Origin: Streptomyces yatensis
GTDB lineage: Bacteria; Actinomycetota; Actinomycetes; Streptomycetales; Streptomycetaceae
Assembly (NCBI RefSeq): GCF_018069625.1
Contig: NZ_CP072941.1
Location: forward strand, 10,292,001-10,356,000
DNA: 64,000 bases
Direction: 5' to 3'
This document shows positions 44,659 through 63,129 of the stretch, piece by piece (position 1 is the first letter of the stretch; each line of letters opens with the position of its first letter). The translations under genes were made by a program, and so were the position numbers. The notes beneath the pieces are model-generated. The model worked only from the letters and a program-made list of their open reading frames with translations. It did no database searches and was not told where the DNA came from.

Positions 44659-45650
44659 GATCCGATTGACATGACCTTCGACGACGCCCGAATTCCAGGG
44701 CAGCGTGAGTCCGGCGATGACGGCGTCGCGGTCGCGGTCGATGCCGGCGGCGAGCGTGTGGAGGCTGGGCAGGTCGTCCTGACGGACGGCATCGAGCCAG
44801 TCCGGCAGACGCTCGCCCTTGCGGCCGGTGACCATGGCCGCGAAGGCACGGACGTGCCGGGTCAGAGCGTCGAGTTCGGGGCAGTGAGCCCGGACGACCT
44901 TGAGCTGGAGATGCTCGGATTCGGTGAGGGTTTCCGGATTCCGGAGGATCCATCCGGCGACGGCTCGGGGCGACGGCGGCCGAGCAGTCACCGGACCTGG
45001 TGAAGTGCGCTTGTCGTGCAGGTAGGCGCGAACGCGCTGGTAGCTGCCCTTGTAGCCGAGGGGGACGATTCCTCCCACAGCTTCCACGCGTTTGTGCAGC
45101 CCTCGTTCCAGCGGTCGTCCAGGTAGGGCTTGTAGTCATCGAGGACCGAAGGCCGGTTCTGCCATTGACCGGTGAACAGCTCCTCCGGCGTCGCGACGTC
45201 GGCGAACTGCTTGACGGTTCGCCAGCTCATCCCGAGCTGGCGCTGGACCGAGCGTCGACTGTGCCCTGCGTTCAGCAGGGCGTGGACGGCAGTGTGCCGG
45301 GCCCGTGTCCGGTCGGCGAAGCGGTGTCCTCGTGGCCAAGGCGAAGCCGACGGGTCCGCGGCCGGGACTGCCTCGGGTTCGGGCTGAGGTGCTGCGGGCG
45401 TCAGAACCTGCAGACATCGGCGGTGCTGAGCGACGCTCCGCTCGGCGGCCTCGCTCAGGTTGTGCCAGAGATGCCACCTGTCCGCGACCTGGACCGCTTG
45501 CGGCGCTCCGGCCGCAGCGCCTTCAGCGAAGAACGGCGCGCGGTCCCGGCAGACGACCTCGACGCCGGGCCGCTCGGCGAGCCATGCAGCCAGGCTGGAT
45601 GCCTCCCGGTCCGGGAGCAAGTCGACCGGACGGCGGGTTTCGACGTCTGC
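44659..45650 (-). pseudogene. Main piece of the split ISL3 transposase, 5'-truncated
   Basis: The complement encodes the middle of an ISL3 DDE transposase from DVETRRPVDLLPDREA near 45,650, through GVEVVCRDRAPFFAEGAAAG, VQVADRWHLWHNLSEAAERS and LLNAGHSRRSVQRQLGMSWR, to GVVEGHVNRI at 44,659, with one frame change near 45,070. The N-terminal zinc-ribbon part (about 150 residues expected) is missing: homology stops near 45,650, at the left boundary proposed for the CRISPR-transposase element. Its C-terminal piece is at 40,596-40,667. Confidence 0.82.
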
Positions 45651-45753
45651 TGAGTCTCATTTCAATGTCCATTCATATTTCTCGTTGTGATGTCACTGGT
45701 ACGGGAGCTTAGGCAGGTAGCTGACCTGGTGTCACCGCAAGTACATCCCTTTT

Positions 45754-45832
45754 GTGAGACGACAGCGGGTGAGAAAAATGGCTGTCACGTTGTGAGAATT
45801 GCCAGGACATTTTCGTGAGAATTGCTATAGCG
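45754..45832 (+). repeat. Four direct GTGAGA repeats, possible transposase-binding end sites
   Basis: GTGAGACGACAG starts at 45,754, GTGAGAAAAATGGCTGT at 45,769, GTGAGAATTGCCAGG at 45,792 and GTGAGAATTGCTATAG at 45,815. The last three are spaced exactly 23 bases apart and point the same way, the arrangement of TnsB-type binding sites at the ends of Tn7-like elements. They lie between the ISL3 truncation point and the CRISPR array. The surrounding 45,651-45,946 stretch is AT-richer than its neighbours and holds no gene. Binding is inferred only from pattern. Confidence 0.55.
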
Positions 45833-45946
45833 AGTCCCGTCTGACCTGTGGTTTCTCGGTGGTCGATGCTGTCATGCCTGCAGGATCGACGGCCGCGCCC
45901 CCGCCTACCGCGAATGGCTCCAACCGCTTGACCAGTATCAACACAG

Positions 45947-46330
45947 GCAATCCATCTTGCTTGCGCGGCGCTTACGGCGCGGAGGTTCCTTAGCTCGTGC
46001 CCATCCCTGCTTGCGCGGGACTTACGCGAGAGCACCCTCCATGACGCGCGGGTACTTCGAGCCATCCCTGCTTGCGCGGGGCTCACGTCGGCGGCCTGCT
46101 GGGCTCGAGACCTGATGCCGAGCCATCCCTGCTTGCGCGGGGCTGGCTGTCGCCTCTACATGACCGCGACTCCACGCATCGATCCAGTCCCGCTTCCGCA
46201 GGACCTGTCGTCGCCTCTACATGACCGCGACCCCACGGCTCGATCCATCCCTGCTGACGCGGAGCTTGTCCCGAGAAGGTGCGCGTGGACCGCGGTAAGG
46301 GCGATTCATTCCTGCTTGCGCGGGGCTTGT
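45947..46330 (-). CRISPR. Type I-E CRISPR array, seven degenerate 29-bp repeats, six spacers
   Basis: Repeats start at 45,947, 45,997, 46,058, 46,119, 46,180, 46,241 and 46,302, each 29 bases; from the second onward the period is exactly 61 (32-base spacers), while the first spacer is only 21 bases. Read on the complement the best repeat (46,086 down to 46,058) begins GTGAGCCCCGCGCAAGCAGG and aligns with the E. coli I-E repeat, with a CCCCGC/GCAGGG-type hairpin, so transcription runs leftward from a leader next to cas3. Repeats differ from each other at many positions. Spacers 46,148-46,179 and 46,209-46,240 are 28/32 identical. Confidence 0.9.
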
Positions 46331-46503
46331 CTCTTCGTGGCCTGATGTTCTCGGGTGAGTTTAGCAGCGTTTGTGTGTCATCGGTGGTCGTGTGGCGGAC
46401 GGTTGCTTCCGGCCGGGGTGGGTGACGTGGTGTGGGCTGTAAGGGGGGCTGGTGCGTGGGAGGGTTGTGGTTTCTCGGCGGACCGGTGGTGGGGGTGGCG
46501 GTG
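46331..46503. promoter_or_regulatory. Leader and divergent promoter between CRISPR array and cas3
   Basis: The 173 bases between the last repeat and the cas3 start should contain the array leader (complement) and the cas operon promoter (plus strand). The part next to the repeats is AT-richer (GTTCTCGGGTGAGTTTAGC). No firm -35/-10 pair could be assigned. A further GTGAG at 46,354 resembles the first half of the end repeats but lacks the rest. Confidence 0.5.
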
Positions 46504-49367
46504 ATGGGGGCTGTTGAGGACGCCCGGCTGGGGGGTATCGATCTGGGGCCGTGGACGGAGTTCGATGCGGCTTCGAATACGGTGTATCCGCTGTTGTTCG
46601 GGATGCTCGACAGTGCGGTGATGGCGTTCGAGGTGTGGGAACGTGTGGTGACCGTTTCCCAGCGGGATATGCTGAGCGAGGGTATGGGGCTGCCTGCGGC
46701 GCAGGCGCGGTCGGTGGTGGCGTTCCTGGCCGGGCTTCAGGATCTGGGACGCATGGTTCCCCGATTCCAGCGCGCGCACCATGCCGCCTGGGCGCGGCTC
46801 GATGACACGCTGGTGGAGCAGGCGGGCGGCGATACCGGGTGGACACCGACCGCGCGCAGTTCGATGCATGTGGCGCTGGGGGTGCTGACCATGAGCGGCT
46901 ACGCGTGCGCCGGCAACGCCAGTCCCGCGGTGCGGGCGGCCCAGGTGGTCGGTGGCTGCAGGGGATTCTTCCTCCAGGCTGATATCGAGGGTGCGGCGTC
47001 CGCGCGCCGGGTGTCTGTTGCGGCCGGGGGAGAGGCATGGGACAGGCTGCGTCACCGTTACGCGGCCGTGGTGCGGCATCTGACGGGAGCCGTACACGTT
47101 CCCGAACGGCTGTCCGTCCCCGCGGCGGTACTCGCGGCCGGTGTGGGGACGGTGGCCGGCCAGCTGGCGAGGCAGCGGTCCTACTGGCTGCCGAAGGCGC
47201 ACATGCCGGCCTTCGGGGCGGCCGAACACTTCACTCTGGCAAGCGGGGAGGCGCGGGACGTTCTGGATGCGGCATGGCTGGAGAAGCTGGAGTGGCAGGA
47301 CGTGCCGTTCGCGGTGGCGCATCCGCGCGCCAGGCGCCCCAACAGGTTCCAGGAGTCGCTGATGACCCAACTGCCCTCCCTGGTCGGGAAGTCGGGCAGC
47401 GGTATCCTGGTGGCGGCGGATGCGACCGGGACGGGCAAGAGTGTCGGCGCGCTGCAGGCGTCGCGGATCTTCAACGCGGCCTGCGGGAGTAGGGGAGTGG
47501 CGTGGCTGTCGCCCAGCACCGCCACCGCGGATGCCTCCTGGGAACTGCTCGAGGACTACGTGCGCCGGCACGATCCCTACCGGGCACCGGTCGCTCTCGC
47601 GCACAGCCACAGCTGGCTCAACGCCGCCTACAGCGACCGCCGGCTCGCCGCGGTGGAACTCGCCCCGGTCCCGGTGGCCGCAGGGGAGAGGGTGCCGCCG
47701 ACGGGGGACGCCGCTGGCGCGGGTGATGACGATCCGGTGACGGAGCCCCCCAGGCTGCTGCGGGGGCACGACGCGGCCTTGCTGGCCCCGTTCTGCGCCG
47801 CGACGGTCGATCAGGCGCAGATGGCTGTCCTGCCCGTCCACTCCAACGCGGTACGGCTGCTGGGCCTGTCCGGCAAGACGGTCGTCGTCGACGAGGCGCA
47901 CGCCCTGTCTGCCTTCAGCCACCTGCAACTGCTGCGCCTGCTGGGCTGGTTCGGGTCCCTGCGCACCCCCGTGGTGCTGCTGTCGGCGACTCTGCCCGCC
48001 TCCACTGCCGACGCATTCGTGCGCGCCTACCTGACAGGTGCCGGCCACAGGGCCTCCGCTCTGCCGCAGGGTGCCTTCAGCCCGTCGTATCCGGGCTGGC
48101 TGTTCGCCGATGCCGCGACCGCGACCGCCACCGTCATGGACGAGACCGCACGCCTTCGTCACGCCGCAGGCCAGCACCGTCAGGCCCGTATCCGCGTCCA
48201 CGACGTGCGGCGCACACGGCTCGGCCCGCAGCCGCGCACCGTCGGGAGCACAGAGCGCCTCGCGGTGATCGGTGACGTGCTCACGCCCGTCATCAGCCAC
48301 GGCGGATGCGCCGCGGTGACCTGCGCGACTGTCCCGGACGCCCAGGACACCTACCGGCACCTGAAGCACACCTGGCCCGGCGACCCGGCCGACCTCGTCC
48401 TGCTGCACGCCCGCTTCCCCGGCCACCACCGTGAACGTCTCCTGCGCACCCTGAGCCGCCGGCTGGGACCCACCGGCGAGCGCCCGGAGCGGCTCGTCGT
48501 TGTCACCACGAGCCTGCTCGACACGAGCCTGGACATCGACGTCGACCTGATGGTCAGCGACCTGGCCTCCGTCGCCCGCCTGCTGCAGCGTCTGGGACGC
48601 CTCGCACGCTTCGCCCTACGCTGGCAGAACGATGATGCCTCCCGCCGCCCGGTGTGGTGGGGCGACGGCCACATCCCGGACTTCCACGTCCTCGAACCCG
48701 TCTCGGCCGCCGGCGCCACTTCGATCCCGGCCGGCTGGCGCACCCTGGAATCCCCCTTCGTCCTGCGCGCCACTGCCGACCTGCTGCGCACCCGCTCACT
48801 GATCAGCCTGCCCGGCGATGTGCAGGACCTGGTCGAGCAGATCCACGGCCCGCACTCGCCCTTCGCCGGGGCCACCGAAGCCCTCAGATACGACGCGGCC
48901 CGCCTGCGGACAAAGGACACCATCGAACGGCACCTCAGCGCCCAGCATCTCCTCCCGCCGCCGGGCCGTGTCTCCTCCCTGGCCGACCTCCACCGCCAGC
49001 GCCTGACCACCGCGCAGGCCGCCACCCGGCTGGGCACGCTGCCCGTGCGGCTGCTGCCCTGCTACCGCACCGCCTCCGGCGGCCTCGCCCTCGACCGGGC
49101 CGGCCGCCACCCCCTTCCCACCGGGCCGCGTCTGGAGACCGCCGGCATCCGCCGCGTCCTGCAGCACACCCTGCCCGTCCCCGCCGCCTGGGTCGCCCGC
49201 CGCGGCCCCCAGCACCGTCCCCCGAGGCCTGGAGCACCCACCCCCTGCTCGCGGACCTGGTCCTGCTGCCCGCACCGGCCCACCACACCGGACACACCGA
49301 ACAGTACGGCCGCTACCTGCTGCGCATGGACGACGAACTCGGCCTTGTCCACACCACAGCCCGCTGA
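46504..49367 (+). CDS. cas3: Cas3 helicase with inactivated HD nuclease domain, one frameshift near the end
   Basis: About 950 residues. Helicase motifs are intact: motif I ADATGTGKSVGA (Lys312), motif II VVVDEAHALSAF (463-466), motif III LLSATLPAS and motif VI LLQRLGRLARF. The N-terminal HD nuclease is not: the H-L-x-D motif reads GMLD (Gly33), the HD pair of HDIGK reads QDLGR (Gln79-Asp80) and the GGHHG pair reads GGCRG (Cys152-Arg153). These His residues bind the two catalytic metals in active Cas3, so DNA cleavage should be lost while DNA translocation may remain. ATG 46,504 was chosen; GTG 46,432 is in frame. One C missing from the run at 49,219-49,223 shifts the frame; the restored end is GRYLLRMDDELGLVHTTAR. 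Confidence 0.87.
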
Positions 49368-49663
49368 CCGGCAGGAGAACACCTCCCCGCCGCCGGGTAT
49401 TCGTATGACTTATCTCGCCGTTTGTACACGCGGGGTCACTCTGTGATTATCTGAATGTGTGCCCGGTCGAAGATTCCACCGAGGCAAACGCCCCTGTGCC
49501 ACAAGCACTCTGACGGGCCGCATGCACCATGTCCCGCCCGTTCCCGGCCGAGTGACGCCCAGGCCGCGGCCCCGCCGCCCTCCCCGCCGTCCCGGGACAG
49601 GGAAGCCCCGCACTCTCATCCCCCTCGCCCTTCTTCTCCTGCTGCCTCTGTGGAGCACCACCG
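49368..49663. other. Gap between cas3 and cas8e, possible internal promoter
   Basis: 296 bases without a supported gene, unusually long inside a cas operon. The segment 49,400-49,470 is AT-richer than its surroundings (TGATTATCTGAATGTG) and could hold a separate promoter, so that Cascade and the transposition genes might be expressed apart from Cas3. The cas8e TTG start is preceded by TGGAG at the usual distance. Confidence 0.45.
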
Positions 49664-51811
49664 TTGACACCGCCCGACCGCTTCAGCGCGGCCGACGACC
49701 CCTGGATCGACGTCCGTGACCAGCACGGCTACCACCGCACCGGCCTGCGCGGCCTGATCCTTGACGCCCACACCATCGAAGACCTCGCCGTGGCCGCCGC
49801 CCCGGCCGCATCGGCCATCCTGCGCATCGCGACCGTCCTGGCCGCCCGCATCACCGGCCTCGACGACCCCGAACTGAACGCCGACACCTGGAACCGGCAC
49901 CGCAGTGAACTCCTCGGCCGTACCGACGGGTTCGACACCGACGCCGTCAACACCTACTTCGCGAAGTACTCCTTCGACGTGTTCGACCCGTTACGGCCCT
50001 GGATGCAGGACCCCCGGCTGCGCGAGCAGTGCGCGATACCCTCCGGCATCAACACGCTCGTCTTCGGACGCCCCGCAGGCAACAACCTGGCCTGGCTCAG
50101 CCCCCACCACGACCAAGCAGCGATGCCCCTGCCCACCGGCGAGGCACTCCAGCACCTCCTCATCCACCACTACTACGGAGCATCCGGCGGCTGCACCTCC
50201 CGCACAGCCGGCACACTCACATGCCCCCGCGCCGCCGCCGGCCCCCTGCGCGGCACCGTCTCCTTCCACCCCCTGGGCCGCACCCTGTACGAAACGCTCC
50301 TGGCAGGCATCCCGAAATTCACCGCCGACGAACAGAGCGAACCAGACCACTGCCCATGGGAAGAGCCCCAACTCCCCGACCCGCAAGCCCCCTTACCGCC
50401 CGCCACCTGGCCGGGACGGCGCCTGACAGGCATGAACCGGCACTCCGTGCTCCTCGTGCCCGGCGACGACGCGAGCACCGTCACCAACGCCTACCTGACC
50501 TGGTCCACCCAGCAGCCCCGGCTCGCGGTGACCGACCCCTACCTCGTCGTCCGCACCGGCACCGGCCGCCCGCCCCAAGCCCGTCCCCGCCGCGCGGACG
50601 CCGACCGCGCCTGGTGGCGCGAGCTGGACTCCCTGGTCCTGGCTCCCGACGAACAGCATGCGACACGCCGCCCGGAAGTCTTCGACACCCTCAACGACCT
50701 CCCACCCCCAGTACGCAAGAGCCTGCGCGTACGGGTCCACGGCTTCGACCAGGACACCAAAACCATCCAGCGCCGCTGGTACACGGCCATCACCCCGCCC
50801 CTGCTCGCCTGGAGTCAGGAACACGACCCCGCACGCGCCAACCGCATCTCCGAATGCTGCACCGCAGCCGAGAGCACCGCCTCCCGCCTGACGTTCCTGA
50901 CCAACCAGGCGTGGAAGGACACCTGCCACGCAGCCCCCTCCTCAAAAGATCCCTCGTGGACCGCCACAGCCCGCAGCCTGTACTGGCAGCAAGCCGAAGC
51001 AGCGTTCTGGCACCTCCTGGACACCGACACCCCCGCACGGATCACGTTCGCCGACACCGCAGCCCGCGCCCTGCGCACCGCGACTGCCAGCGCCCGCTTC
51101 CGCCACCGCGCCGCCGCCCGCGCCATCGCCACAGCAGTCGACGCCCTCTACACCCGCCCCCCGCCGCCCGCGCACGCCAGGACCCTGATGCCCACTGCGA
51201 TTGAGTACCGCCGCCACTACACCGGCTTCACCGCAAAGGTCGAGAAAGCCTGCACCGACCCCAAAGCGCGGCGGACCCTGCGCCAGGGCCGCGGCCGCCC
51301 GGTCGACGACTGCAACGGCATGCACCGCTTCCTGTCCGTGCTCACCCACGGCTACGGGCAACGCCGCGTCCACTACACCGTCGCCTCCCTGATCGCCCAC
51401 GTCGACCCCCTCGATGCCGTACGGGCAGCACACGCCACCAGCACCGAACAACCCACCACCCCCGCAGCCACGAACCCCGACCCTGCCCCCGACCTCGACC
51501 CCTACAGTCCGGCCACCTGGCGGAAACGGCCCAACCTCGGCGCGACCCTCGCCCACGCGGTGCGCACCGCCGACTTCAACGAGACCCGTACCGACGAACT
51601 CCTCGCCGTCCTGGTCCGTCTCAGCGAGAACCAGCTGCACCGCCGCCTGCCCTCCCTGACCGGCCGTCTCATCGACGCAGACCTCACCCCCGACTGGCCG
51701 GTTCTTCTCGACGACCTCGCCCAGCGCGACCACGACCGGGGCCGGGTCGCCACCCGCTGGCAGGACGCCTTCTACCGCACCCTGTACCTGACCTCCAAGG
51801 AAACCCCGTGA
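49664..51811 (+). CDS. cas8e: Cas8e (Cse1) fused to Cas11 (Cse2)
   Basis: A 715-residue protein, much longer than ordinary Cas8e (about 500-560). Residues 1-510 match Cse1: SAADDPWIDVRDQHG, AVNTYFAKYSFDVFDPLRPW, the loop SGINTLVFGR-type region and RWYTAITPPLLAW. From about residue 514 to the end it matches Cse2: EYRRHYTGFTAKVEKACTDP, RVHYTVASLIAHVDP, NLGATLAHAVRTADF and LTPDWPVLLDDLAQRDHDRG ending RWQDAFYRTLY. The two parts are joined by a Pro/Thr-rich linker-like segment inside the Cse2 half. No separate cse2 gene exists, so the fusion supplies both large and small subunits. TTG start; overlaps cas7 by four bases. Confidence 0.88.
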   Translation: MTPPDRFSAADDPWIDVRDQHGYHRTGLRGLILDAHTIEDLAVAAAPAASAILRIATVLAARITGLDDPELNADTWNRHRSELLGRTDGFDTDAVNTYFAKYSFDVFDPLRPWMQDPRLREQCAIPSGINTLVFGRPAGNNLAWLSPHHDQAAMPLPTGEALQHLLIHHYYGASGGCTSRTAGTLTCPRAAAGPLRGTVSFHPLGRTLYETLLAGIPKFTADEQSEPDHCPWEEPQLPDPQAPLPPATWPGRRLTGMNRHSVLLVPGDDASTVTNAYLTWSTQQPRLAVTDPYLVVRTGTGRPPQARPRRADADRAWWRELDSLVLAPDEQHATRRPEVFDTLNDLPPPVRKSLRVRVHGFDQDTKTIQRRWYTAITPPLLAWSQEHDPARANRISECCTAAESTASRLTFLTNQAWKDTCHAAPSSKDPSWTATARSLYWQQAEAAFWHLLDTDTPARITFADTAARALRTATASARFRHRAAARAIATAVDALYTRPPPPAHARTLMPTAIEYRRHYTGFTAKVEKACTDPKARRTLRQGRGRPVDDCNGMHRFLSVLTHGYGQRRVHYTVASLIAHVDPLDAVRAAHATSTEQPTTPAATNPDPAPDLDPYSPATWRKRPNLGATLAHAVRTADFNETRTDELLAVLVRLSENQLHRRLPSLTGRLIDADLTPDWPVLLDDLAQRDHDRGRVATRWQDAFYRTLYLTSKETP

Positions 51812-52962
51812 CTGCTGCCCGCTTCCTCGACATCCACGCCCTCCACCCGAGCACGGCCGCCAATCTGAACAGCGACGAGAGCGGGGAACCCAAAACCCTC
51901 GAACTGGGCGGCGCCATCCGCACGATGATCTCCTCCCAGGCATGGAAACGCCCGATCCGACTGGCCGTCGAAGAAGAACTCGACGAGCACGCCGCCCGCA
52001 CCCGCATGGTCCCTCCGACCGTCACCGACGCGCTGCGCGCCGAGGGCTGGACCGAGGACCTGGCATCGTTCGCCGCGGCCCAGATCGCCGCCAGCGCGAA
52101 GACCGGGGGACTCAAGACCAATCCCCAAGAAGACCACCGCACCCAGGCCATGTTCTTCCTGCCCGCCGACACCGCCCGCCACCTGACACAACTGTGCCGC
52201 ACCCACCGCACCACCCTCGAAGAAGGCCTGGCCAAACAGACCGCCACCAAGAAGCCGGCCCCCGCACTCCTGCCCACCGACGAGATCACCGCCCAGCTCA
52301 CCCGCCGCACCGCCAGCATCAGCCTCTTCGGGCGCATGCTCACCGAAATCCACGACGGCCACATCCAAGCCGCCGTACAGATGGCCCCGGCCTTCACCGT
52401 CCACCGCAGCGAGCCCCAGCCGGACTTCTTCACCGCCGTCGATGACTGGCCCCGCCCTGGCGAAGCAGGCAGCGCCCACCTCAACACCGCCTACCGCTCC
52501 ACCGGACACTTCTACCGCTTCGCGACCGTCAACACCACCACACTCCTGGCCAACCTGAACGGCGACACCACCACCGCCCGCACCCTCATCGACCTGTTCA
52601 CCCAGGCATTCATCATGACCATGCCCCGCGGCGGACAGACCTCCGCAGCCGCGCACACCGTGCCCGACCTCGTCCACTACGTCGTACGTGACCGCCGACC
52701 CGTCTCCTACGGCGCCGCCTTCGAACAACCCGTCCGCTCCCACGGCCAGGGCTACGTCCTGCCCGCCCGCCAGGCCCTCACCACGTACGCCACCACCATC
52801 GACCGCCTCATCGGCACCCGCCACCGCATCACCCACGGCCACGCCACCACCGCCGGCACCCCCATCGGAGAACTGGGCACCCACCACACCGGTTTCGATG
52901 ACCTCGCCGCCACCTGCGCCCGCACGGCCCTGCCCGACACCCCCAGCCAGGCCGCCGCATGA
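51808..52962 (+). CDS. cas7e: Cas7e (Cse4/CasC), Cascade backbone subunit
   Basis: A 384-residue Cas7 protein. Family blocks are FLDIHALHPSTAANLNSDES, LGGAIRTMISSQAWKRPIRL, ISLFGRMLTEIHDGHIQAAV, AHLNTAYRSTGHFYRFATVN and MTMPRGGQTSAAAHTVPDLV. Six copies would coat the crRNA spacer in Cascade. The frame is intact and overlaps cas8e (ATGA-type) and cas5 by four bases each, consistent with a single translated operon. Confidence 0.92.
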   Translation: MTAARFLDIHALHPSTAANLNSDESGEPKTLELGGAIRTMISSQAWKRPIRLAVEEELDEHAARTRMVPPTVTDALRAEGWTEDLASFAAAQIAASAKTGGLKTNPQEDHRTQAMFFLPADTARHLTQLCRTHRTTLEEGLAKQTATKKPAPALLPTDEITAQLTRRTASISLFGRMLTEIHDGHIQAAVQMAPAFTVHRSEPQPDFFTAVDDWPRPGEAGSAHLNTAYRSTGHFYRFATVNTTTLLANLNGDTTTARTLIDLFTQAFIMTMPRGGQTSAAAHTVPDLVHYVVRDRRPVSYGAAFEQPVRSHGQGYVLPARQALTTYATTIDRLIGTRHRITHGHATTAGTPIGELGTHHTGFDDLAATCARTALPDTPSQAAA

Positions 52963-53756
52963 GCCGCGGACTGGTCCTGCGCGCAGCCGGCCTCCTGCAG
53001 TCCTACGGCGAGGCAGGCACCTTTCACCACCGCGACACCACAACCTTCCCCACCCGGTCCGCACTGATCGGCATGTTCGCCGCCGCCCAGGGACGCACCG
53101 CCGAACACGCCCTGGACCCTTACCCCGAACTGCCGGGCACCCCCAGCCACCGCGACCTTGCCCTCACCATCCGCGTCGACTGCCCCGGCACCCCTACCGC
53201 GACTGGCACACCACCGGCGGCGGACGCCCCCACCGCCAAGGCCTGCACACCAGCGACGGGAAATACCGCACCCAAAACAGATCCACGCACATCTCCCAAC
53301 GGGACTATCTGACCGGCGCCGTCTTCACCATCGCCGTCCAAGGCCCCGCCCGCTCCTGGCGCACATCGCCACCACACTCACCACCCCGCGCTTCTCCCCC
53401 TACCTCGGCCGACGCGTCTGCCTGCCCGACGAACCCTCCTCATCCACACCGACATCCCCGACCCCGAAACCGCCCTGCGCGACCGCGTCCCCCTCAGCCT
53501 CGCCCACCCACCCCGCCCCGGCCAGACCCACGTGCCCATCGACTTCTGGGCCGAACACCCCCCACACCCCGGCACCCCACCCGACCGCGAAACCCCGAGC
53601 GAACCAGCCGACTTCACCCACACCCGCCGCCACCACCTGCTCCGCCCCCTGTGGAGAACCACCGAACCACTCCCCACCACCCTCTACGCCGGACCCCGGC
53701 CCATCGACACCCTCACCGACTACATCCTCAAGGACACCCCATGCCGGCAACCCTGA
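52959..53756 (+). CDS. cas5e: Cas5e (CasD), three apparent one-base frameshifts
   Basis: Starts at an ATG overlapping the cas7 stop. The N-terminal ferredoxin-like domain is clear: LVLRAAGLLQSYGEAGTFHH, TTTFPTRSALIGMFAAAQGR. The sequence then moves through three frames; restored it continues DWHTTGGGRPHRQGLHTSDG, DYLTGAVFTIAVQGPA, LLAHIATTLTTPRFSPYLGR and DFTHTRRHHLLRPLW to the stop at 53,756. Each break sits at a C position (53,191-53,194, about 53,353, and 53,434-53,436) and is repaired by adding one C. No nonsense codon occurs in the restored frame. It overlaps the cas6e start by 16 bases. Cas5 caps the 5' crRNA handle. Confidence 0.82.
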
Positions 53757-54379
53757 CCCGCATCATCCTCAACCGCCACCACCGCAGAGCCTGCAACGAC
53801 CTCGCCTACCGACCCGGCCTCCACAAAACCATGATGCGCCTCCTGCCCCACCCCGACGGCCCCCACCCCCGCAAAGCCGGCGGCCTCCTTTTCCGCCTCG
53901 ACCCCGGCCTCGACCCCGTCCTCCTCGTCCAAACCGCCGACACCCCACACCTCGCCGGCCTCCCCGACGGCTACGGAGACATCACCACCCGCGACCTCAC
54001 CCCCATCCTGACCGGCCTCACTCCCCACCTCCCCGTGCGCTACCGCATCACCGCCGCCCCCGTCGTCAGCCGCAGCGCCGACGCCGTACCCCACCCCGTC
54101 ACCGGACGCCTCCGCGGCAAACTCACCCCCCTGACCGGACCGGACGCCATCGCCTGGTGGCAACGCCGCGCCCCGGCCGCCGGCCTGCACCTCACCAGCC
54201 TCCCCGCAGCCACACCCTGCCCCTTCCCCTCTCCCCGCCCAGGACCCTACGAGCGCCTGACCCAGTTCGACGGCACGGCCACCATCAGCGAACCGGCCCT
54301 CCTCGACACCGCGATCCGCGAAGGCATCGGCCGCGGCAAGGCCTACGGAGCCGGCCTGCTCACCCTCACCCCCGGCTGA
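53741..54379 (+). CDS. cas6e: Cas6e (CasE) crRNA-processing endoribonuclease
   Basis: A 212-residue Cas6e. The general catalytic His is His28 in YRPGLHKTMMRLLPHPDG, matching the position of His20 in E. coli Cas6e, and the C-terminal glycine-rich loop reads GIGRGKAYGAGLLTLTPG. It would cut the pre-crRNA at the base of each repeat hairpin and stay bound to the 3' handle. The frame is intact. The transposase gene begins 41 bases after its stop on the same strand. Confidence 0.92.
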   Translation: MPATLTRIILNRHHRRACNDLAYRPGLHKTMMRLLPHPDGPHPRKAGGLLFRLDPGLDPVLLVQTADTPHLAGLPDGYGDITTRDLTPILTGLTPHLPVRYRITAAPVVSRSADAVPHPVTGRLRGKLTPLTGPDAIAWWQRRAPAAGLHLTSLPAATPCPFPSPRPGPYERLTQFDGTATISEPALLDTAIREGIGRGKAYGAGLLTLTPG

Positions 54380-54420
54380 ACCATCCCGCCCTCCACGAAG
54401 CACGAAAGGCACCCCCCGCC

Positions 54421-56004
54421 ATGCAACCGCCCCTGCCCGCTCCCGACGACACCCGGCTGCGAGCCCTGGCAGTCAGCCGCCTGCTACACCACAGCGAACT
54501 CGGCACCCTCGCCCCCGGGCACACCCGCGCCGTATGCGACGCCTTCGGCGTCACCTCCCGTACCGTCCGCCGCTGGATGAAAAACGCCGCGGCCAACAAC
54601 GGCACCTACACCCCACAGGGCCGCCCCGCCTACCAGCTCACCGACCACGCCATCGAAGTCATCGCACGATTGCGGGGCAACGTCACCGCCGCCTACAAGG
54701 AACTCAAAGAAGAACCCTTCAAGGACGAGAAACTCCCTTCCCCGGCCACGTTCCACCGGGCAGCCCAACGCCACTGGAACAAAGGACAGCGCGCCGGCCT
54801 GAGCGGAGGAGAAAGCGCCCGCCGCCGCTACGACATCCACGGAGAACGCGAACACCACCACCGCAACTATGCCTGGGAAACCGACCACGTCGAAGCCAGC
54901 GTCCCCGTCATCCTCGACGGCCACGTCCGCAAACCATGGATCACCTGGTTCATCGACTGCGCCACCAAATGTATCTGCGGCGTCGCCATCACCCCCCAGA
55001 CACCCAGCAGGGAAAGCATCCTCGTCGCCCTGCGCGACGCCATCCTCACCGAAGCGCCGCACAACCCCTATGGCGGGATCCCCGACCGCATCCGCGTCGA
55101 CGGCGGCCGCGACTTCCTCTCCCGCACCGTCGGCCAGGCACTCGGCTCGCTCGGCACTGAAACACATCGTGCTGCCGCCCCGCCGCCCCGACCTGAAAGC
55201 CACCGTCGAAGCAGCCAACGGCGCCATCAAAAAAACCCTCTTCGCCGACTTCCCCGGCTACACCGAAGCCCCCACCCTGTCAGGCGGCAAACCCGTCGAC
55301 CCGACCAGCCCCTCCTGCACTTCGAAGGCTTCGTCGCCCTCGTCCTCGACTGGATCCGCAAACGCAACACCGTCCACACCATGGACAAACTCGACGGAAA
55401 AACCCCCGAGCAGGCATGGACGGACGACCTCACCCCCATCTTCGATGTCCCTGCCGAAGACCTGCACACCCTCACCCTTGAGCGCGCCGGTAAACCCCTG
55501 ACCATCAACAACAGCGGCGTCCGCTGGCGCAAACGCGACTACATCGCCGAATGGATGCACGGCCACGCCGGCGAAAAGGTCCACCTGCGCCACCTCCTGC
55601 ACCACGACCACCGCGTCGAGCTCTACGAGCCCGGCACCCTCCGCCACCTCGGCCCCGCCTTCCTCACCGATCAGGTGACCCCCGCCCAGCGCAGAGCACT
55701 CGACCGAGCCCGCCGCAGCGAGGCCGACCGACTGCGCAACGCACTCAAAAAGGCCGAGAGGAACCGCAACGCACGCTACGAAGCCGTCACCGAAGCACGC
55801 CCACCCCGACGGCTGGACGCCCTCACCCAGGACGAAGCGACCGAACAACTACGCGAACTCAACGCCACCAGCCAGGCATTCGAACCGCTCCCGGACTTCA
55901 TTCCGCTTCCCGAACCCTCCGACGACCTGACCATGCCCCTGGACCACCGCCCCAACCAGCCCGAGGACGAACACCCCGACGACCAGACCGGACTCCGAAC
56001 ATGA
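54421..56004 (+). CDS. tnsB: Mu/TnsB-type DD35E transposase directly downstream of cas6e
   Basis: About 527 residues: N-terminal helix-turn-helix (DAFGVTSRTVRRWMKNAAAN), an rve/RNase H-like core and a Mu-type C-terminal barrel (NNSGVRWRKRDYIAEWMHGH, VELYEPGTLRHLGPAF) with a charged helical tail. Catalytic residues are Asp155 (WETDHVEA), Asp227 (RIRVDGGRDF) and Glu263 (LKATVEAANGAIK); after frame repair the last two are separated by exactly 35 residues. Two opposite one-base shifts (about 55,153 and 55,309-55,312) affect the core; the second is a C-run. The gene is in the cas operon (41-base gap) and overlaps tnsC by ATGA. No tnsA is present, so a copy-in or cointegrate route is expected. Confidence 0.82.
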   Translation: MQPPLPAPDDTRLRALAVSRLLHHSELGTLAPGHTRAVCDAFGVTSRTVRRWMKNAAANNGTYTPQGRPAYQLTDHAIEVIARLRGNVTAAYKELKEEPFKDEKLPSPATFHRAAQRHWNKGQRAGLSGGESARRRYDIHGEREHHHRNYAWETDHVEASVPVILDGHVRKPWITWFIDCATKCICGVAITPQTPSRESILVALRDAILTEAPHNPYGGIPDRIRVDGGRDFLSRTVGQALGSLGTETHRAAAPPPRPESHRRSSQRRHQKNPLRRLPRLHRSPHPVRRQTRRPDQPLLHFEGFVALVLDWIRKRNTVHTMDKLDGKTPEQAWTDDLTPIFDVPAEDLHTLTLERAGKPLTINNSGVRWRKRDYIAEWMHGHAGEKVHLRHLLHHDHRVELYEPGTLRHLGPAFLTDQVTPAQRRALDRARRSEADRLRNALKKAERNRNARYEAVTEARPPRRLDALTQDEATEQLRELNATSQAFEPLPDFIPLPEPSDDLTMPLDHRPNQPEDEHPDDQTGLRT

Positions 56005-56791
56005 CCCAGCCACCCGCCCCCGCCTGCCGGCTTCCCGACCCCATCCACGACCACTACCAGCGCCTCGCCGGAGCCCACACGGTAGGCACCAAGGCAGCCC
56101 GCGAAACGGAACAACTCATCAAGGAGGCCATCGAGCACCACTCCATCATCTGCATCCACGGACAAGTCGGCCTCGGCAAGACCTTCGCCGTCCACCGCGC
56201 CCTGCGTAAATTCGCCCCCACAACACCGTCCGCCTCCGCTTCGACGCCAGCGCCACCAAGACCGAGGTCTACCACGCCTTCTGGCGCGCCCTCGCCCTGC
56301 CGGGCAAGCCCCTCGACAACCTCGCCGCCTGCAAAGGCGACATCCGACAGGCCCTCGCCAGCCAGCCCCACGTCCTGCTCATCGACGAAGTCCAGAACAT
56401 CAACACCTCGCTCATGGAGAGCGCCCGGATCCTGTGGGACGAAGAGACAAACCCCCTCACCGTCATCCTCGTCGGCAGCGGCAACACCCGCCAACGAGTC
56501 CTGCGCCACGCACCCCTGCACTCCCGCCTCTACCAGGCCCAGCAGTTCAGACCACTGAGCCTTGCCGAGGTCTTCAACAACATCCCTCCCTACCACGCCG
56601 TGTGGAACGACGCCGACCAGGACCTCCTGGCCTTCACCGACGACGCAGGCGCACACGGCTACTTCCGTAACTGGGCCAAGATCACCTTCCATGCCCAGGA
56701 AGCCCTGAAGAAGAACCCCGAACTCACGATGAGCAAAGAACTCATCCGCTGGATCCTCGGTCGGCTCGACACCACCACCCGTCACTCCTGA
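56001..56791 (+). CDS. tnsC: MuB/TnsC-type AAA ATPase, one frameshift
   Basis: About 263 residues. Walker A is IHGQVGLGKTF (Lys60), Walker B is PHVLLIDEVQNINTSLMESA (Asp129-Glu130), and a sensor Asn follows in ILVGSGNTRQRVL. Size and pattern fit TnsC/TniB/MuB regulators that bind target DNA and activate the transposase. The frame breaks once at a run of five C (56,215-56,219); one more C gives FAPHNTVRLRFDASATK and an open frame to the stop. Translation is coupled to tnsB. In known CRISPR-associated transposons TniQ links Cascade to TnsC; no TniQ gene was seen, so here contact might be direct. Confidence 0.82.
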
Positions 56792-56833
56792 ACCCGCCGG
56801 AGCGGGCCCGCAGACAGGGGAGGTGAGCAGTCC

Positions 56834-57625
56834 TTGTCGGAGCGAACTTCAGTCGCTGCAACCACCAGGCTCCCACCGACGACCGCGCTGGCACAGGCCG
56901 GTGGATCGCCATCGACGAGTCCGGTTACCACGGCGATCAACTCCACGGCGGCGACCGTTACGTGATCATAGCCTCGGTGGCCATCGACGACGCGGAAGCA
57001 GCCGGATCGTGGACACGCTGCGACGAGAGGCGGGAATCCAGAAGTCCGCGACAGAGGTGAAGCTCCAGAAGATGTTCACCGGCGGGGAAGCCGGTCAGCG
57101 CCGTCGGCTCTTGGGCGAACTGCTGGCACCCGGCGCGCCCTTGCACGACCGTGCTTCGGTGTACGTGATCGACAAGCACTACTTTGTCGCGGCCAAGCTC
57201 GTAGACCTCGTGCTGGAGGATACGCCTACGCTCGCCGCCGCAAGGCCCCCCAGGCGAAGAAGGCGGCAGAGGTCCTGGACATGCTGCGCAAGACCCGCCC
57301 AGAAGCCGATGAGTTCGCCCGTGAGCGTCCGGCCGAGGCCACACCGACCGGAGAGCACGGCCTCCTGGACGACACTACGGACCTCCTCGTCACCGCGGTG
57401 CCCACGGTCATTCTCCACGCGTCGATACGCTACGGCGGCAAGCCCCAGGTCCTCGCGGACGACCAGAGGCTGCTGACTGACGACAAACTCGACGTCCTGG
57501 AACGCGGGGCCACGGCCGTGGGCTTGGTCCACGGCCTCATCAACGGGGCCGTCACCGAAACTGAAGCTCGGACCGCTCACTGCGGAGGACGGCCCGCGGT
57601 GAATACCGGGGCCGACGGGTGCTAG
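56834..57625 (+). pseudogene. DUF3800 protein, several frameshifts
   Basis: Reading through three frames gives a DUF3800 protein: GRWIAIDESGYHGDQLHGGD (the D-E-S-G motif near the N-terminus), YVIIASVAIDDAEAA, VKLQKMFTGGEAGQRRRLLG, VYVIDKHYFVAAKLVDLVLE and VLADDQRLLTDDKLDVLERG. DUF3800 proteins have an RNase H-like fold with acidic residues and are found in mobile and defence contexts; their reaction is unknown. All frame changes are of the minus-one kind and no stop codon occurs, so it may be intact in reality. It begins about 40 bases after tnsC and is the first cargo-like gene. Confidence 0.65.
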
Positions 57626-57891
57626 GGAGCGCCGTCGACTCTGCTTGTTCGTCTTCGGTCACCGCCGCCAGCGGGTGACCGGCCACGCGCCGCTATGCGC
57701 CGCCACGGGCCTGCCCATCTTGTCAGGGACGCGGGTGCCCAGACCGGCTTGCTGTCCGGATGTGTCGGACAGGACCCTAAGCCTGCCCAGCGAGCACTCT
57801 TCTGGCGCTCCCTTGAACCCTGCGGCCAGGATCTCGAACGCCTCCCCTTGACCACCGGCGCTCCGAGTTCGTGCAGGTCAGCCACCAGAAC
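57626..57891. other. Gap without a supported gene
   Basis: About 265 bases between the DUF3800 gene and the convergent DUF2290 fragment. Short plausible frames exist, but none has a recognisable family pattern or a good ribosome binding site. Confidence 0.3.
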
Positions 57892-58299
57892 CTAGCGCCA
57901 CATCAGGTGGGGGCTTGTACGGTCGTCGTCGGTGAGCGTGCGCTCGCCTATGTGACGGGTGGCGCCCTCGGTGAAATAGCTGCGGTGGGCTGCCCACAGG
58001 CCGGCGTAGAAGTGCCGGAAGATGAAGTCCATGAACCGTCCCACGTGCATAGGTGCGGCACAGGCGATTCGGCACTGTATGGAGTTGAGGGTCAGATGTG
58101 AGGCAGGGTGTCCCGGAGCGGCGGATGCCGGGTCGTAGTCGAAGCGTATGGCCGAGTGCAGCACCATACTGGTGGGGGTGTCTGCGGCGTAGATGTTCAC
58201 GACGTCCAGTAGTGGTTCGACACGGACGAGGTCTGGGTCCATGCGGTAGGGCGTGGGTATGTAGGCGAGCCGGTGGCCGGCGGCAGGCCCGTCACCCAC
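57892..58299 (-). pseudogene. DUF2290 protein, 5' end cut by an IS fragment
   Basis: The complement encodes the C-terminal two thirds of a DUF2290 protein: MVLHSAIRFDYDPASAAPGH, PASHLTLNSIQCRIACAAPM and VGRFMDFIFRHFYAGLWAAH are family blocks. The upstream part is replaced at about 58,293 by an IS5-like transposase tail in the opposite direction, so the N-terminus is missing. DUF2290 proteins occur in accessory islands, often next to nuclease-like genes; function unknown. Confidence 0.7.
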
Positions 58300-58464
58300 A
58301 ACCGATCTCTACCGCGACCGCAACACGGTCGAGCGGGCCATCAACAGGATGAAGGACTGGCGAGGCATCGCGACCCGCTACGACAAGACGCCCGAGAGCT
58401 ACCTCGCCGGACTTCATCTCCGCGCAGCGACCATCTGGATCAGCAACATCCTAAAAGCCCAATG
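58293..58464 (+). pseudogene. C-terminal fragment of an IS5-family transposase
   Basis: The frame reads DLYRDRNTVERAINRMKDWR, then GIATRYDKTPESYLAGLHLR and AATIWISNIL before a stop. This is the well-known last block of IS5-group transposases, with the catalytic Glu in TVERAINRMKD. The rest of the transposase and both inverted repeats are absent. It truncates the DUF2290 gene. Confidence 0.85.
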
Positions 58465-59047
58465 ATCACAACTGGAGACAGTCCCTAGTGACCTGTGGGT
58501 TCGAGGCTCGGCGGGCCGTGTTTTGCTCACTTTACCGGAGCCGGATGTTTCGGTGAGGGCGTTGCTGGGTGGGGCGCCCCGGCAGGCTATCTCTGATCCT
58601 GACCTCCGGCCGGGCCGCCGCCGCGACGGCGACCGTTGCTGCTCGGCGTGGCAGGAGCGCGCTGGGGCGACGCTGAGTCCGGGCAGTCCGGGGGGAATGC
58701 CGCCGGCGCGTCCCGGCGGGAGGTCGTCGCGTACGGCGCGGCCGCCCCGCCGTCGGCTTTGCGTCATTCCCGACACGCCCGGTGGTCAAGGCATGCTTGA
58801 CATCGCAGTGAAAGGCCGGGACCGGAACCGTTCGAACGGGTGACCTGAGGCGAGGCTGCGCTGCCCGCTTCGCGTACGCGACTCTCCCCATGCGGCCTAA
58901 TTTATATGTCGTCACGAACTGACCTCTCATTGATTCTCTTGCATGGTTTTCCGTCACATGCGGCTTTTGGGGTTGTGGGCGCGATGACCTCTTTGCACGC
59001 TGATGAGCAGATGTCATCACAACCGTGAGCACGTGCAGGGGGACGCG
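58465..59047. other. Gap without a supported gene
   Basis: About 580 bases. The part 58,890-58,990 is AT-rich for this genome (CTAATTTATATGTCGTCACG) and probably holds the promoter for the ATPase cassette that starts at about 59,048. No reading frame shows family features. I compared this AT-rich stretch with the left-end repeats and found no convincing inverted match. Confidence 0.35.
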
Positions 59048-59496
59048 TTGGACGCCGAAATTGATGTCATGGCCGTGGCAACTCAGAGTGTCGCCGCACT
59101 GGTGACAGAGATGGTCCGCGGAGGATGGGATGCGGTCCGGGGCGCGTTCGCCCGCTTCCTGCACCGCGACGGACAAGCAGCCGACCGGCAGCTGGCCCTG
59201 TTCGACGAGGCGGCACAGACCCTGGCCAGCGGGCGGACACGCCCGACAGCGAGGAGAGGCGACGCCTGGAGAACCGCCTGGTCCTTCAACTGGCTGCCTA
59301 TCTCGACCGCTTTCCCGACATGGCGGACGAACTGCGCGCTCTGCTGCCCGATGACACGCCCGCGTCAGGAGCACAAGGCCCGCCGCTGAGCGCGCAGCAC
59401 AACACCCACAGCCAGGTCGTGCAAGCACTCGGCAACGTGGACGCCGGCAGCGGTGGCATCAACTACGGCGTCTCGCCACGCGCGGCGGACGCGTGA
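59048..59496 (+). CDS. Small helical protein preceding a P-loop ATPase, one frameshift
   Basis: From a TTG preceded by AGGGGG the protein reads LDAEIDVMAVATQSVAALVT, GWDAVRGAFARFLHRDGQAA, and, after a one-base shift near 59,236, DSEERRRLENRLVLQLAAYL and LGNVDAGSGGINYGVS. Helical proteins of this size, ending in a QxxALGNVxAGSGG-like stretch, commonly precede STAND/NACHT-type ATPases in Streptomyces. No enzymatic motif is visible; an adaptor or sensor role is a guess. Confidence 0.6.
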
Positions 59497-59503
59497 CCGG
59501 GCC

Positions 59504-61488
59504 GTGACGTCTCCCACCGCACACTCCACCGGCCTCCCACCCGCCCAGCCCACGATCAGCGCCAGCGACAACTCCTACTCCACCATCTACCAGGCAGCAG
59601 GCGACATCAACCTGCACCAACGCCCGACACTGCCGACATTCCCCGTGACGGACAGCGAGATCAAGGCCGTACGCCGCGCCTGGGTCAAAATCACGCCCGC
59701 CAACACCCCGCTGACAACGGCCGACCAGATCCTGAAGCTGCTGCGCGAAGATGAGCCGATCGTCGTCATCAGCGGCCCGCCCGGTACCGGAAAGACCGCC
59801 GCCGCACTGCGGGCCCTGACCGACTTCGCCTCCAGCGCTCCGCACCGGACTCAGCGCGAGGACGGCTCCACCTCAGGCACGTCCTGCCCGACTGGGACGG
59901 TCCCGACTCCGACCTGCTGCCCGCGAACCAGGCCGCGGCTACATCCTCGACGTGGCGGGAGAAACCTGGAGCGACCCGCCCGCAGCCGCCCGACAAATCC
60001 TTGGACACGCCGACACGCTGCGGCACAGGGGCTCATGCCTCATCGTCATCACCGGTGCAGCCAACTGGCCGAGCGGACACGACCCGCAGATGGGCCGCAT
60101 CGCCATCACAGCCGAAGCCCCCCGCGGAGACCTAGTACTGGAACGCCACCTCAACGTCCTCTACCCGGATCCGGACAAGATCGGCTGGCTCGCCAGCCAT
60201 GACGGCAAGGACAGTGGCGGACTGACGGACCTGCTGCGGCCCGACATGCCGCCGGGAGAGGCTGCCGGCCGCGCTGTCGCACTCAGCCGCATCGACGCCA
60301 CACGACCCGATGCCCTGAGCAGGGCACGGGATGCGATGACCGGATGGCAGCACCTCGTCGCGGCAACCTTCGCCGACACCGAGGGCAGCGCCGACGATCG
60401 GGCCCTGCTGCTCGCGGCCATCGTCCTGGACGGGAACAGCTCAACCGATGTCCTCAAGGCCGCCCGAACGCTACTTCAGCAAGATGAGCACCGCGCCATC
60501 ACCGACATTCTTACTGCGCCCGCCCTCGCCACCCGCCTCGAGAAGGTGCAGGCCAAAGTCGAGGCCAGCGCGTCAGCTTCGACCACCTGCCCGGCTACCC
60601 CGACGCAGTGCTGCGCTACGTCTGGCGTCGCTCAGCGACGCCAGCAGCCGCTGCTGGAACTGGATCCAGAAGCTCACCACCCCCAAGGGCCCTGCCGCAC
60701 CCCGCATCGACGCCCTCGCTGGGCTGCTGGCCGACCTCGCCGTCGCCGAGCACGACCTCAAACCCCTCGACATCACCCAGGCCTGGCCCAAGCCGGCTCA
60801 CCAGGGCAACGGGCCGCCGCCACCATGCTCGCCACCGCTGCCCAACACCCACCCTGGGCTCGGAGGTCCGCGCCCGGCTGCGGACCTGGGCATCGAACCC
60901 CCGGAAGGCACCGCCACGGTCACAGCCGTCGCCTGCCAGGGCGAGTTCGCCTCCCTCTACCCACGCCAGGCCCTGACCTGCCTGCGATGGGTCCTGGACC
61001 GGCCGCGTCACGACCAGGCCGTCACCGAAGCAGCCCAAGCCCTGCGCACCATGGCCTCCAACCTCCACCTCCTGCCGAAGGTCTGGGACGCCGTCACCGC
61101 CTGGAGAAGCGGCCCCGCACAAGGCGAGCGAGGCCACCGGGCCGGACGCAGGGCCTTCATCGCCCTGCTCACCCCCCAGGCCGACCCATCGCCGGCCCCC
61201 CTCCTGCTCGCCAACGCGCTCACCGACCCAGCAACCGCCGACGACCTCGCCGCCGGCTGGTGCGCCGTGCTGGAAGAACCCGCCTTCGACGAGCCAGCCG
61301 AAACACTGCTGACCGACTGGGCCCAGGCCGTCGCCGACGCCGCCCTCGACAGGCAAGCCGTCATCCGCATCCTCGACCGCGTCATCGACCAGCACCTCAT
61401 GACCGGCCCCATGGCAGCCTTCCTCATGGGCCGCGAAGGCCACGCCCACACCCCCGCCGCCGTCATCGACTGCGCAAACACCTCATGA
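59504..61488 (+). CDS. P-loop ATPase (STAND/AAA-like) with helical C-terminus, many frameshifts
   Basis: About 660 residues after frame repair. The N-terminal low-complexity stretch SDNSYSTIYQAAGDINLHQR is a known lead-in of Streptomyces STAND-like ATPases. Walker A is VVISGPPGTGKTAAALRALT; a Walker B-like YILDVAG region and SCLIVITGAANWP follow. The rest is helical, HEAT/TPR-like (LLLAAIVLDGNSSTDVLKAA, LRTMASNLHLLPKVWDAVTA). At least seven frame changes occur, nearly all minus-one, with no nonsense codons. Such genes often belong to defence systems; here it may be cargo of the CRISPR-transposase element. No effector domain is recognisable. Confidence 0.6.
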
Positions 61489-61673
61489 TCAGCTACCGCG
61501 CGCCGGCACCACCCGGCCCGGAGCCGCACGAGCCGATCCACCCGAAACCCCGACCGCGCCGAACCGGCGCCGCGGGCGCCGACTCTCCGCCAGCCGGACC
61601 CCTCGCCACGCACCCACATGCACTCGCCGATGCTGCCCCCTCGCTCAACGGGCTCGGACGGGAGAGCGCATGA
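61485..61673 (+). CDS. Small Pro-rich protein, 62 residues
   Basis: An ATG overlapping the ATPase stop (ATGA) opens a 62-codon frame (MISYRAPAPPGPEPHEPIHP) that ends with a stop overlapping the ATG of the next gene, again by four bases. The double overlap argues for real translation. The composition is Pro/Ala-rich without a family pattern, so it may be a short linker-type protein or the edge of a frameshifted neighbour. Confidence 0.45.
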   Translation: MISYRAPAPPGPEPHEPIHPKPRPRRTGAAGADSPPAGPLATHPHALADAAPSLNGLGRESA

Positions 61674-62414
61674 CCCACACCACCCGGCGAGCTCGCCACC
61701 GCGCGCTGCGGCGAGGCGTCACCGACTTCCCCGCTCTCCTGCGCAGTTCCGCCCGGCATCCACTTCACGCCCTCATCACCGCCACGGTCCTCACCGACCC
61801 CGATAGCGCCAACGACACGGACCTCATCGCCAACCACATCCGGCAGGCCCTGCGATCCGCCGCAGCCGAGGCCCTGCGCGAGCAGGACCCCACCGACCTC
61901 CCTGCCGCCCGCGACGCCTGCAACCGTCACCTGAGCACCCCCGCACCACCGCCACGGCATCAAGGTGACGGCCGCCGCCCGCCTCACTCTGGCCCCGGAC
62001 GACCAGGCCGCAGTAAACGAACTCCTCACCGCGGCCCGCACCCAGGGCATCAAAGACACCCTGGAAAGCCAGCGCACCCAGGCGCTCGCGAACGACTCGC
62101 CCACCCCGCAGCCCTCCTGGCCTGGCTGCTTTCCAACTCCACCACCGACCTGGCCGGCCTGCCGGACGACAAGGCCCTGGCCGACACCGCAGAGCGCCTC
62201 GCCCGCTACCCCGCTCCGAAGGCGAGCCCTTCGAAGTCCAAGTCCTCGCCCTCGTACGGGACTTCTTCGACCAGTTCCCCCGCCAAGAGCAAAGCGCATG
62301 CTCATGCAACTCCTCGCCGACGCCATGCGCGGAGCCCGCCAACCCGCACACGCGGACAAGATCCAAGAACTCTCGAGAACACAACGAACCCCGCCGGCAC
62401 TGTCCCGGCCATGA
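61670..62414 (+). CDS. Conserved-type hypothetical protein, several frameshifts
   Basis: Restored reading gives RRGVTDFPALLRSSARHPLH, HGIKVTAAARLTLAPDDQAA, then VNELLTAARTQGIKDTLESQ, HPAALLAWLLSNSTTDLAGL and MLMQLLADAMRGARQPAHAD to a stop near 62,414. The middle part (ARLTLAPDDQAA followed by a long helix) resembles the stalk of SPFH/band-7-like proteins seen beside Streptomyces ATPase genes, but this is a weak impression. It is coupled to the preceding small gene and closes the cassette that begins at 59,048. Confidence 0.5.
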
Positions 62415-62899: not shown

Positions 62900-63049
62900 C
62901 GGCAGACTCCCATGAACATAGGGAAGGGCGTAGTTGCCGCACTCGCTCGGCGAGGCCATCGACAGCCCCCCACATGCGTGGGGAGCACTCGGCCCATGAT
63001 GGGGCCGCAGTTTACGCCTCCGACAGACCCCCACATGCGTAGGGAGCAC
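62900..63049 (-). CRISPR. Short type I-E-like array, three repeats, two spacers
   Basis: 29-base repeats lie at 62,900-62,928 (degenerate), 62,960-62,988 and 63,021-63,049, separated by spacers of 31 and 32 bases. On the complement the repeat begins GTGCTCCCCACGCATGTGGG, with a CCCCACGC/GTGTGGGG-like hairpin, the usual I-E form, but it differs from the 45,947-46,330 repeat at most positions outside the hairpin frame. The degenerate repeat at the left and the AT-richer flank at 63,050-63,100 place the leader on the right. No cas genes lie beside it. Confidence 0.85.
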
Positions 63050-63129
63050 GCTTGCTGGCCTGCAGGGTCAGCATCTTACGTGAGTGATTTTGCTCATCCT
63101 CGGGGCCGACCACACCGAAGAACGCTCCT

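Follow-up and report, generated by a model that had tools for sequence, protein, structure and literature searches.

Type I-E CRISPR-Cas loci accompanied by transposition genes have been described before. Loci of Streptomycetaceae combining I-E cas genes with tnsB and tnsC were proposed to contain an alternative adaptation module, transposon ends not having been detected (Faure et al. 2019, as retold in passages of PMC12231136 and PMC8730458), and the I-E5 CRISPR-associated transposons (CASTs) of telomeric transposons are characterised, in the passages of PMC12669027 that cite Hsieh et al. 2025 (Science 387 eadp1973), as TniQ-free systems with an active Cas3 HD nuclease and possibly a dual function. 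Passages of PMC11656645 list I-E among the CASTs and describe I-D variants with a dead or an active HD domain; 'I-E' is not mentioned in the passages of PMC10293859 considered here. Analysis of a 64,000-nt stretch of Streptomyces yatensis (hereafter the window), from the right arm of its single 10,360,357-base contig, suggests that a locus of this family is probably a CAST I-E5-type telomeric transposon that has lost the Cas3 nuclease residues and whose guide RNAs are predicted, from sequence comparison, to direct insertion near the ends of linear replicons. The assignment to the telomeric transposons of type I-E5 has good support. The initial annotation could not say whether the arrangement had been described; it was described as an adaptation variant in 2019 and as CAST I-E5. 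With the family itself already known, it is the HD-dead branch that appears to be new; the literature searched, from which Hsieh et al. 2025 was absent, contains no report of such a lineage.

The cas3, cas8e, cas11, cas7, cas5, cas6e, tnsB and tnsC genes lie on the plus strand, as judged from Pfam and NCBIfam matches and open reading frames; matches in the window comprise Cas3, Cse1, Cse2, Cas7e, Cas5, Cas6e and a Mu-transpos_C/rve transposase, a gap of 41 bp separates the cas6e stop from tnsB, and the start of tnsC overlaps the tnsB stop. The one-strand operon proposed in the initial annotation is thereby confirmed, and the true extent of the element exceeds 46504..56791, beginning at a transposon end and belonging to a block, shared with the left arm, that reaches the contig end. 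The closest solved TnsB is 7svw (E 1e-31), followed by the TnsB of Tn6677; TnsC matched no sequence of the PDB at E 0.1. The alignment with the second copy, on the left arm, has 18,402 columns, of which 54 are single-base gaps and none is a mismatch; extended to the contig end, the arm-to-arm alignment spans 22,804 columns with 114 gaps and no mismatches, and the common block is the terminal inverted repeat of the chromosome. The cas5, tnsB and tnsC genes are frameshifted in the window copy and open in the left copy. Because gaps without substitutions point to sequencing indels, these frameshifts are probably artefacts, as is the fusion of cas8e and cas11 that had been read as one gene: the left copy holds them in two frames and a plasmid relative (L161) as two genes, and the fusion was rejected as a real feature. 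The ATPase identity of TnsC is clear only in the left-arm copy, since the gene is frameshifted in the window.

The Cas3 of the window reads GQDCRG in place of the six HD ligands HHDHHD (compared with Thermobifida fusca Cas3 and family members), a loss of five of the six, and retains the helicase motifs GTGKS, DEAH, SAT and QRLGR; the dead Cas3 that the initial annotation had asked about is present. Cas3 proteins 98% (P0118), 82% and 75% identical to it all carry the dead pattern at full length. Across the loci compared (genomes and loci are cited by G and L numbers, G000 being the source genome), the HD domain is intact in 11 and dead in the window, L015 and L017; L027 and L049 are cut short, and L127, L128, L131 and L133 keep at least those motifs found by the search patterns. 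A threshold of E 1e-60 was reached by 261 Cas3 homologues, and among the 120 listed all six ligands are present in 88, three or fewer in 27 and an intermediate number in 5; the 27 HD-dead proteins include 26 with GxGKS and 27 with the DExH box. Six dead Cas3s lie on contigs equal in length to those of listed TnsBs, which would fit shared loci. In a helicase-only tree, built by a quick method from all 30 dead rows and alternate rows of the 96 others, two changes account for the dead rows, and starred branches force at least one of them. Between L015 and L017, the ratio of nonsynonymous to synonymous substitution rates is 0.20 for the HD region and 0.375 for the remaining protein (0.17-0.49 and 0.21-0.42, respectively, in other pairs), indicating that the dead domain is constrained by purifying selection.

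The locus resembles CAST I-E5 (PMC12669027, in the passages named above) in its combination of an I-E effector with a transposase, the absence of TniQ, the telomeric setting and a possible dual function, but the HD nuclease is active there, whereas here and in the related group the HD ligands are lost. Because of this loss, we class the element as an I-E5 variant rather than as a typical member. It shares with the loci of the 2019 adaptation hypothesis the gene order, the lack of cas1 and a variable spacer length; ends are unreported in the retold passages, whereas one was found here, and the nuclease state of Cas3 is undiscussed there. Like the Tn7-like CASTs of types I-F3, I-B, I-D and V-K, it joins TnsB and TnsC to a nuclease-deficient CRISPR effector; unlike them, it lacks TniQ (PF06527 has no match in G000) and an operon-borne TnsA, only one end was found, and Cas3 keeps its helicase. 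Thus, the type I-E CAST of the initial annotation stands as the best reading in the sense of a CAST-like element, and not as a standard Tn7-like one. The I-D CASTs, in the passages of PMC11656645, likewise include nuclease-dead and nuclease-active variants within one group, but their HD domain sits in Cas10d and the elements are Tn7-like; the I-A CASTs of Mu-like transposons (PMC12669027) are also TniQ-free but differ in subtype and element, with a function uncharacterised in that source. Canonical I-E CRISPR-Cas comprises Cas1-Cas2 and a cutting Cas3, whereas here the HD ligands are lost and no Cas1 was found in G000 (Cas2 was not searched).

Outside the transposon end the flanks differ by arm, with an interrupted ISL3-type transposase gene on the right and a gene for a TnsC-like ATPase (31% identical over 186 amino acids, E 3e-19) on the left. 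The end recurs upstream of the arrays in G028, G253, G301 and L013 (twice in L013), where E-values of sequences that belong to the model lack independence, and is also matched at E 0.0013 in G118, which was held out of the first model; the G028 contig begins exactly at the end, which is what the border of a repeated element would produce. A second end was sought by ungapped scoring and nhmmer and rejected: downstream of tnsC in cas-bearing loci, no partner scored above threshold in stretches of 12 to 86 kb, and the positive control, L053, was detected (19 of 22). Similarity between close pairs is lost approximately 57-70 bp past the tnsC stop (approximately 470 bp for L010/L014), with no common boundary motif. 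The cas-free relatives from Cryobacterium have related sites at both ends, approximately 4.3 kb apart. Telomeric transposons have the telomere as one of their boundaries. Such a boundary would fit the far side of this element, where the shared block reaches the contig end and the copies face outward, the assembly end being incomplete; tnsB is oriented to the nearest replicon end in 7 of 7 interpretable copies (both arms of G000 and of G091, G253, the G301 plasmid and NZ_CP134205.1, the mid-contig copy of G118 being left out). The G118 copy (L127; G118:C1, approximately 4.41-4.45 Mb of 8.41 Mb) lies near helicase genes that are subtelomeric elsewhere, perhaps in a rotated linear chromosome. The Cryobacterium elements L036, L053 and L080 are compact (approximately 4.3 kb) and carry, besides tnsB and tnsC, a third gene that has no Pfam match in three examples; two similar ends were seen in L053. 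In L052 (8446-9309), a 143-bp stretch between two opposite end sequences resembles a miniature element.

Scanning named genomes for TnsB yielded 279 confirmed loci, of which 79 distinct ones were kept. cas3, cas8 or cas7 stands beside tnsB in 16 of them, 15 of which match cas3, cas8, cas7, cas5 and cas6 (two with cas3 cut by a contig edge); 3 more have only cas6 directly upstream of tnsB, two of these at a contig edge. The remaining 60 have no cas gene directly upstream, although one of them, L022, begins at a contig edge and another, L068, shows cas5/cas6-like matches approximately 8 kb away. The co-occurrence with cas genes across the surveyed loci argues that the arrangement is more than chance. 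In a 42-row TnsB tree (21 cas-bearing and 3 HD-dead rows, with L022 falling among the cas group, and 18 of the 60 cas-free loci used), the cas-bearing TnsBs and L022 form one group with support of 100/100, and the three HD-dead rows group with 100/98. The initial annotation named two observations that would together count against the CAST, tnsB/tnsC homologues mostly without cas genes and a Cascade mostly beside other neighbours; the first half is seen in the 60 of 79 loci, but the cas-bearing ones sampled are a single clade. TnsB matches at E 1e-60 occur in 89 of 392 genomes of the genus sample (source genome counted), and tblastn at E 1e-40 returned 86 plasmid records.

Upstream regions of 18 loci contain repeats in 17 (not in L009) and spacers in 16, with 206 spacers in total, 137 of them 33 nt long. 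Repeat identity within 15 arrays averages 63-81%, compared with 97-98% in two canonical arrays (L174 and L176, the only controls cleanly registered; L175 and L177 were not, and L163 and L178 have 4 repeats). In the arrays of G028, G264, G118, L010 and others, nearly all repeats differ, and homologous but diverged spacers recur within and between genomes. The crRNA (CRISPR RNA) strand of the window array is presumably the minus strand, given the orientation of its repeats relative to known I-E repeats. In linear Streptomyces plasmids, guides of G000, L010, G118 and L011 match the HA-domain helicase (PF03457); those of G000, G118 and G301 match a hypothetical gene; those of G264 and G028 match the tnsC of a TnsA-B-C element; and G028 also matches a helix-turn-helix gene. 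On target pieces outside the source genome's own arm, real spacers gave 19 matches versus 4 for shuffled ones, the pieces having been chosen because arrays match them and the shuffle being a single set. All eight plasmid records opened are linear, and seven are targets. Among 29 listed targets of the L010 array (83 further target records lie beyond these), the protospacer is within 5 kb of a replicon end in 18, where a uniform distribution predicts 2.5, and within 16 kb in 24. Read in the crRNA sense, 7 of 8 sites have A as the base beside the target, and at the eighth, which has a 32-nt spacer, A fits if the site is shifted by one; a weaker match of 23/33 (ACC) and partial matches of 14-17 nt were left uncounted. 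Self-targeting was rejected, as no guide of the genome matches its own helicase gene (C1:15110-16501, 40% identical) by blastn-short at E 0.01. Phage targets were also set aside: at E 0.5 the window array hits 27 records of mycobacteriophages, which we regard as chance, and at E 0.1 the L010 array hits none. Canonical arrays proved unusable as a target control, being swamped by array-to-array matches.

For the RNA-guided insertion that the initial annotation proposed, the insertion sites are negative for the window copy and suggestive for G118. The G118 element interrupts an HA helicase gene, which L010 guides match at 31/33 and 30/33 at 635 bp, and two of its own guides match the site at 24/33 and 22/33 with GAA. 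Of the 185 windows used as a control, 73 have a match of at least 22, 4 have one of at least 24, 12 have an A-adjacent one and 1 has two such guides. The G253 element lies approximately 290 bp from a tnsC matched at 27/33 by guides of the dead lineage (shuffle maximum 24). At the left copy of G000, guides of G091 and G264 match a TnsC motif at 24/33 and 23/33, approximately 133 bp from the end and within the shuffle range. Several points weigh against a guide-directed telomeric transposon, in which guide-dependent insertion is a prediction and the telomeric boundary an inference. No own guide exceeds the shuffle maximum in the 300-bp flanks of five ends; in wider flanks, own guides do not surpass shuffles for G000 left, G000 right, G253 and G301, and only those of G118 reach the maximum (24/33); and candidate protospacers show no consistent distance from the end or side of it. 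The G118 and G253 sites fit targeting but also a plain preference for replicon ends, so that insertion into subtelomeric genes may be merely end preference. Most family members, moreover, keep an intact HD domain, and TniQ, absent in 7 of 10 carrier genomes, has a match outside the element in the other 3.

The features of the element are collected below. Within the distal part, the AAA/STAND-like gene corresponds to L087:8127-10358 (minus strand) in the left copy and encodes a 744-amino-acid NTPase with weak Pfam matches (AAA/nSTAND3); STAND NTPases adjoin other derived I-E modules in Streptomyces, according to passages of PMC8730458. Two I-E-like repeats 61 bp apart, of a sequence type unlike the main array, lie at 62955-63049 in the same terminal block. 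Rfam gave no match in 45500-64000.

Table. Features of the element and its inner flank, in window coordinates.
Feature	Position	Strand	Basis and remarks
ISL3-type transposase gene, right-arm flank, interrupted by the element	44991..45647	-	Pfam DDE_Tnp_ISL3, E 4e-9; shared block begins at 45648
Conserved transposon end, ~210 bp, starting TGCTGAGTCTCA, with repeated TGAGA-type TnsB-like sites	45648..45857	+	Inner border of terminal repeat; recurs in relatives
Degenerate I-E CRISPR array, 6 repeats, 61-bp period	45998..46330	-	Repeat search
Probable leader, between array and cas3	46331..46503	-	Suggested by position and partial similarity among relatives
cas3, HD ligands lost, helicase motifs kept	46504..49446	+	Frame slips near 3' end in window, seen against left copy
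cas8e, 3' boundary approximate	49664..51189	+	TIGR02547, PF09481; boundary taken from left copy
cas11 (Cse2), 5' boundary approximate, probably separate from cas8e	51190..51811	+	PF09485; left copy; separate genes in L161
cas7e	51808..52962	+	TIGR01869, E 6e-71
cas5, frameshifted in window, 266 aa open in left copy	52959..53756	+	PF09704
cas6e	53741..54379	+	PF08798, E 1e-30
tnsB, DD35E transposase, double frameshift around catalytic E in window, open in left copy	54421..56004	+	
tnsC, AAA ATPase, one frameshift in window, 263 aa in left copy	56001..56791	+	AAA_22, E 6e-19; TniB, E 3e-4
Remainder of element toward chromosome end, cargo including AAA/STAND-like gene (~59401-61695)	56792..64000	.	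Shared block; membership presumed

The published 2019 hypothesis, as retold in the passages of PMC12231136 and PMC8730458, would have TnsB and TnsC replace Cas1-Cas2 in spacer acquisition, making the locus an immune system with an alternative adaptation module. Of 10 carrier genomes, 9 lack Cas1 (a single partial match occurs in G253; the genome of L010 is outside these ten), the arrays of L010 and G253 agree in their distal spacers but diverge toward the leader and at internal positions too, and a constant A beside targets together with a variable spacer length would also suit acquisition. However, the discovery of a transposon end is contrary to the ground stated for that hypothesis, the divergence of repeats within arrays is unlike that of fresh copies, the dead Cas3 of this lineage is unable to cut, and the related cas-free TnsB/TnsC pairs of Cryobacterium are ordinary two-ended elements; we consider this explanation unlikely.

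Silencing of competing linear plasmids is a similarly improbable role for the HD-dead lineage, which would then bind its targets without cutting, in the manner of type IV-A, with TnsB and TnsC serving only to move the element. Nuclease-free silencing by plasmid-borne IV-A is described in passages of PMC11656645, and guides that match conserved plasmid genes, beside a Cas3 that keeps its helicase and lacks its nuclease, would be in keeping with it; but tnsB and tnsC are retained in the cas operon across the clade, and silencing does not need targets near replicon ends. That the window copy is a decaying, functionless remnant, as its frameshifts in cas5, tnsB and tnsC and its mere six degenerate repeats could indicate, is very improbable: the left copy reads the genes open, differing by gaps and by no mismatch, the full-length relatives of its Cas3 share the dead pattern, the dead HD region is under constraint, and degeneracy of the repeats is general across the family.

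For the favoured telomeric transposon, we propose a mechanism in which Cascade (Cas8e, Cas11, Cas7, Cas5, Cas6e and the crRNA) would bind the target and the non-cutting Cas3 helicase, standing in for TniQ, would help to recruit TnsC; TnsB, once activated by TnsC, would connect the one end of the element to DNA close by. Should the far boundary be a telomere belonging to the element, such one-end joining would swap the terminus of the target replicon for the element, and aiming at subtelomeric genes may be favoured because an end swap there loses little DNA. Loss of the nuclease would spare the target from destruction by the system, and the HD-intact majority of the family may combine plasmid interference with transposition. 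More tentatively, and at somewhat less than even likelihood, an old I-E5 sublineage may have become a dedicated, cutter-free and RNA-guided transposon for swapping ends: it would have lost the Cas3 nuclease while keeping the helicase to link Cascade with TnsC, and would direct its guides to subtelomeric helicase and rival-transposon genes so that its own telomere takes the place of the ends of linear chromosomes and plasmids.

The description of CAST I-E5 in the passages of PMC12669027 poses the question of whether defence and transposition can both be served by an effector whose nuclease is active, for which a stable HD-dead sister lineage provides a natural comparison. If this lineage is a guide, insertion should be separable from cutting and the helicase of Cas3 should be sufficient; the lineage also hints that Cascade may be coupled to TnsC without TniQ.

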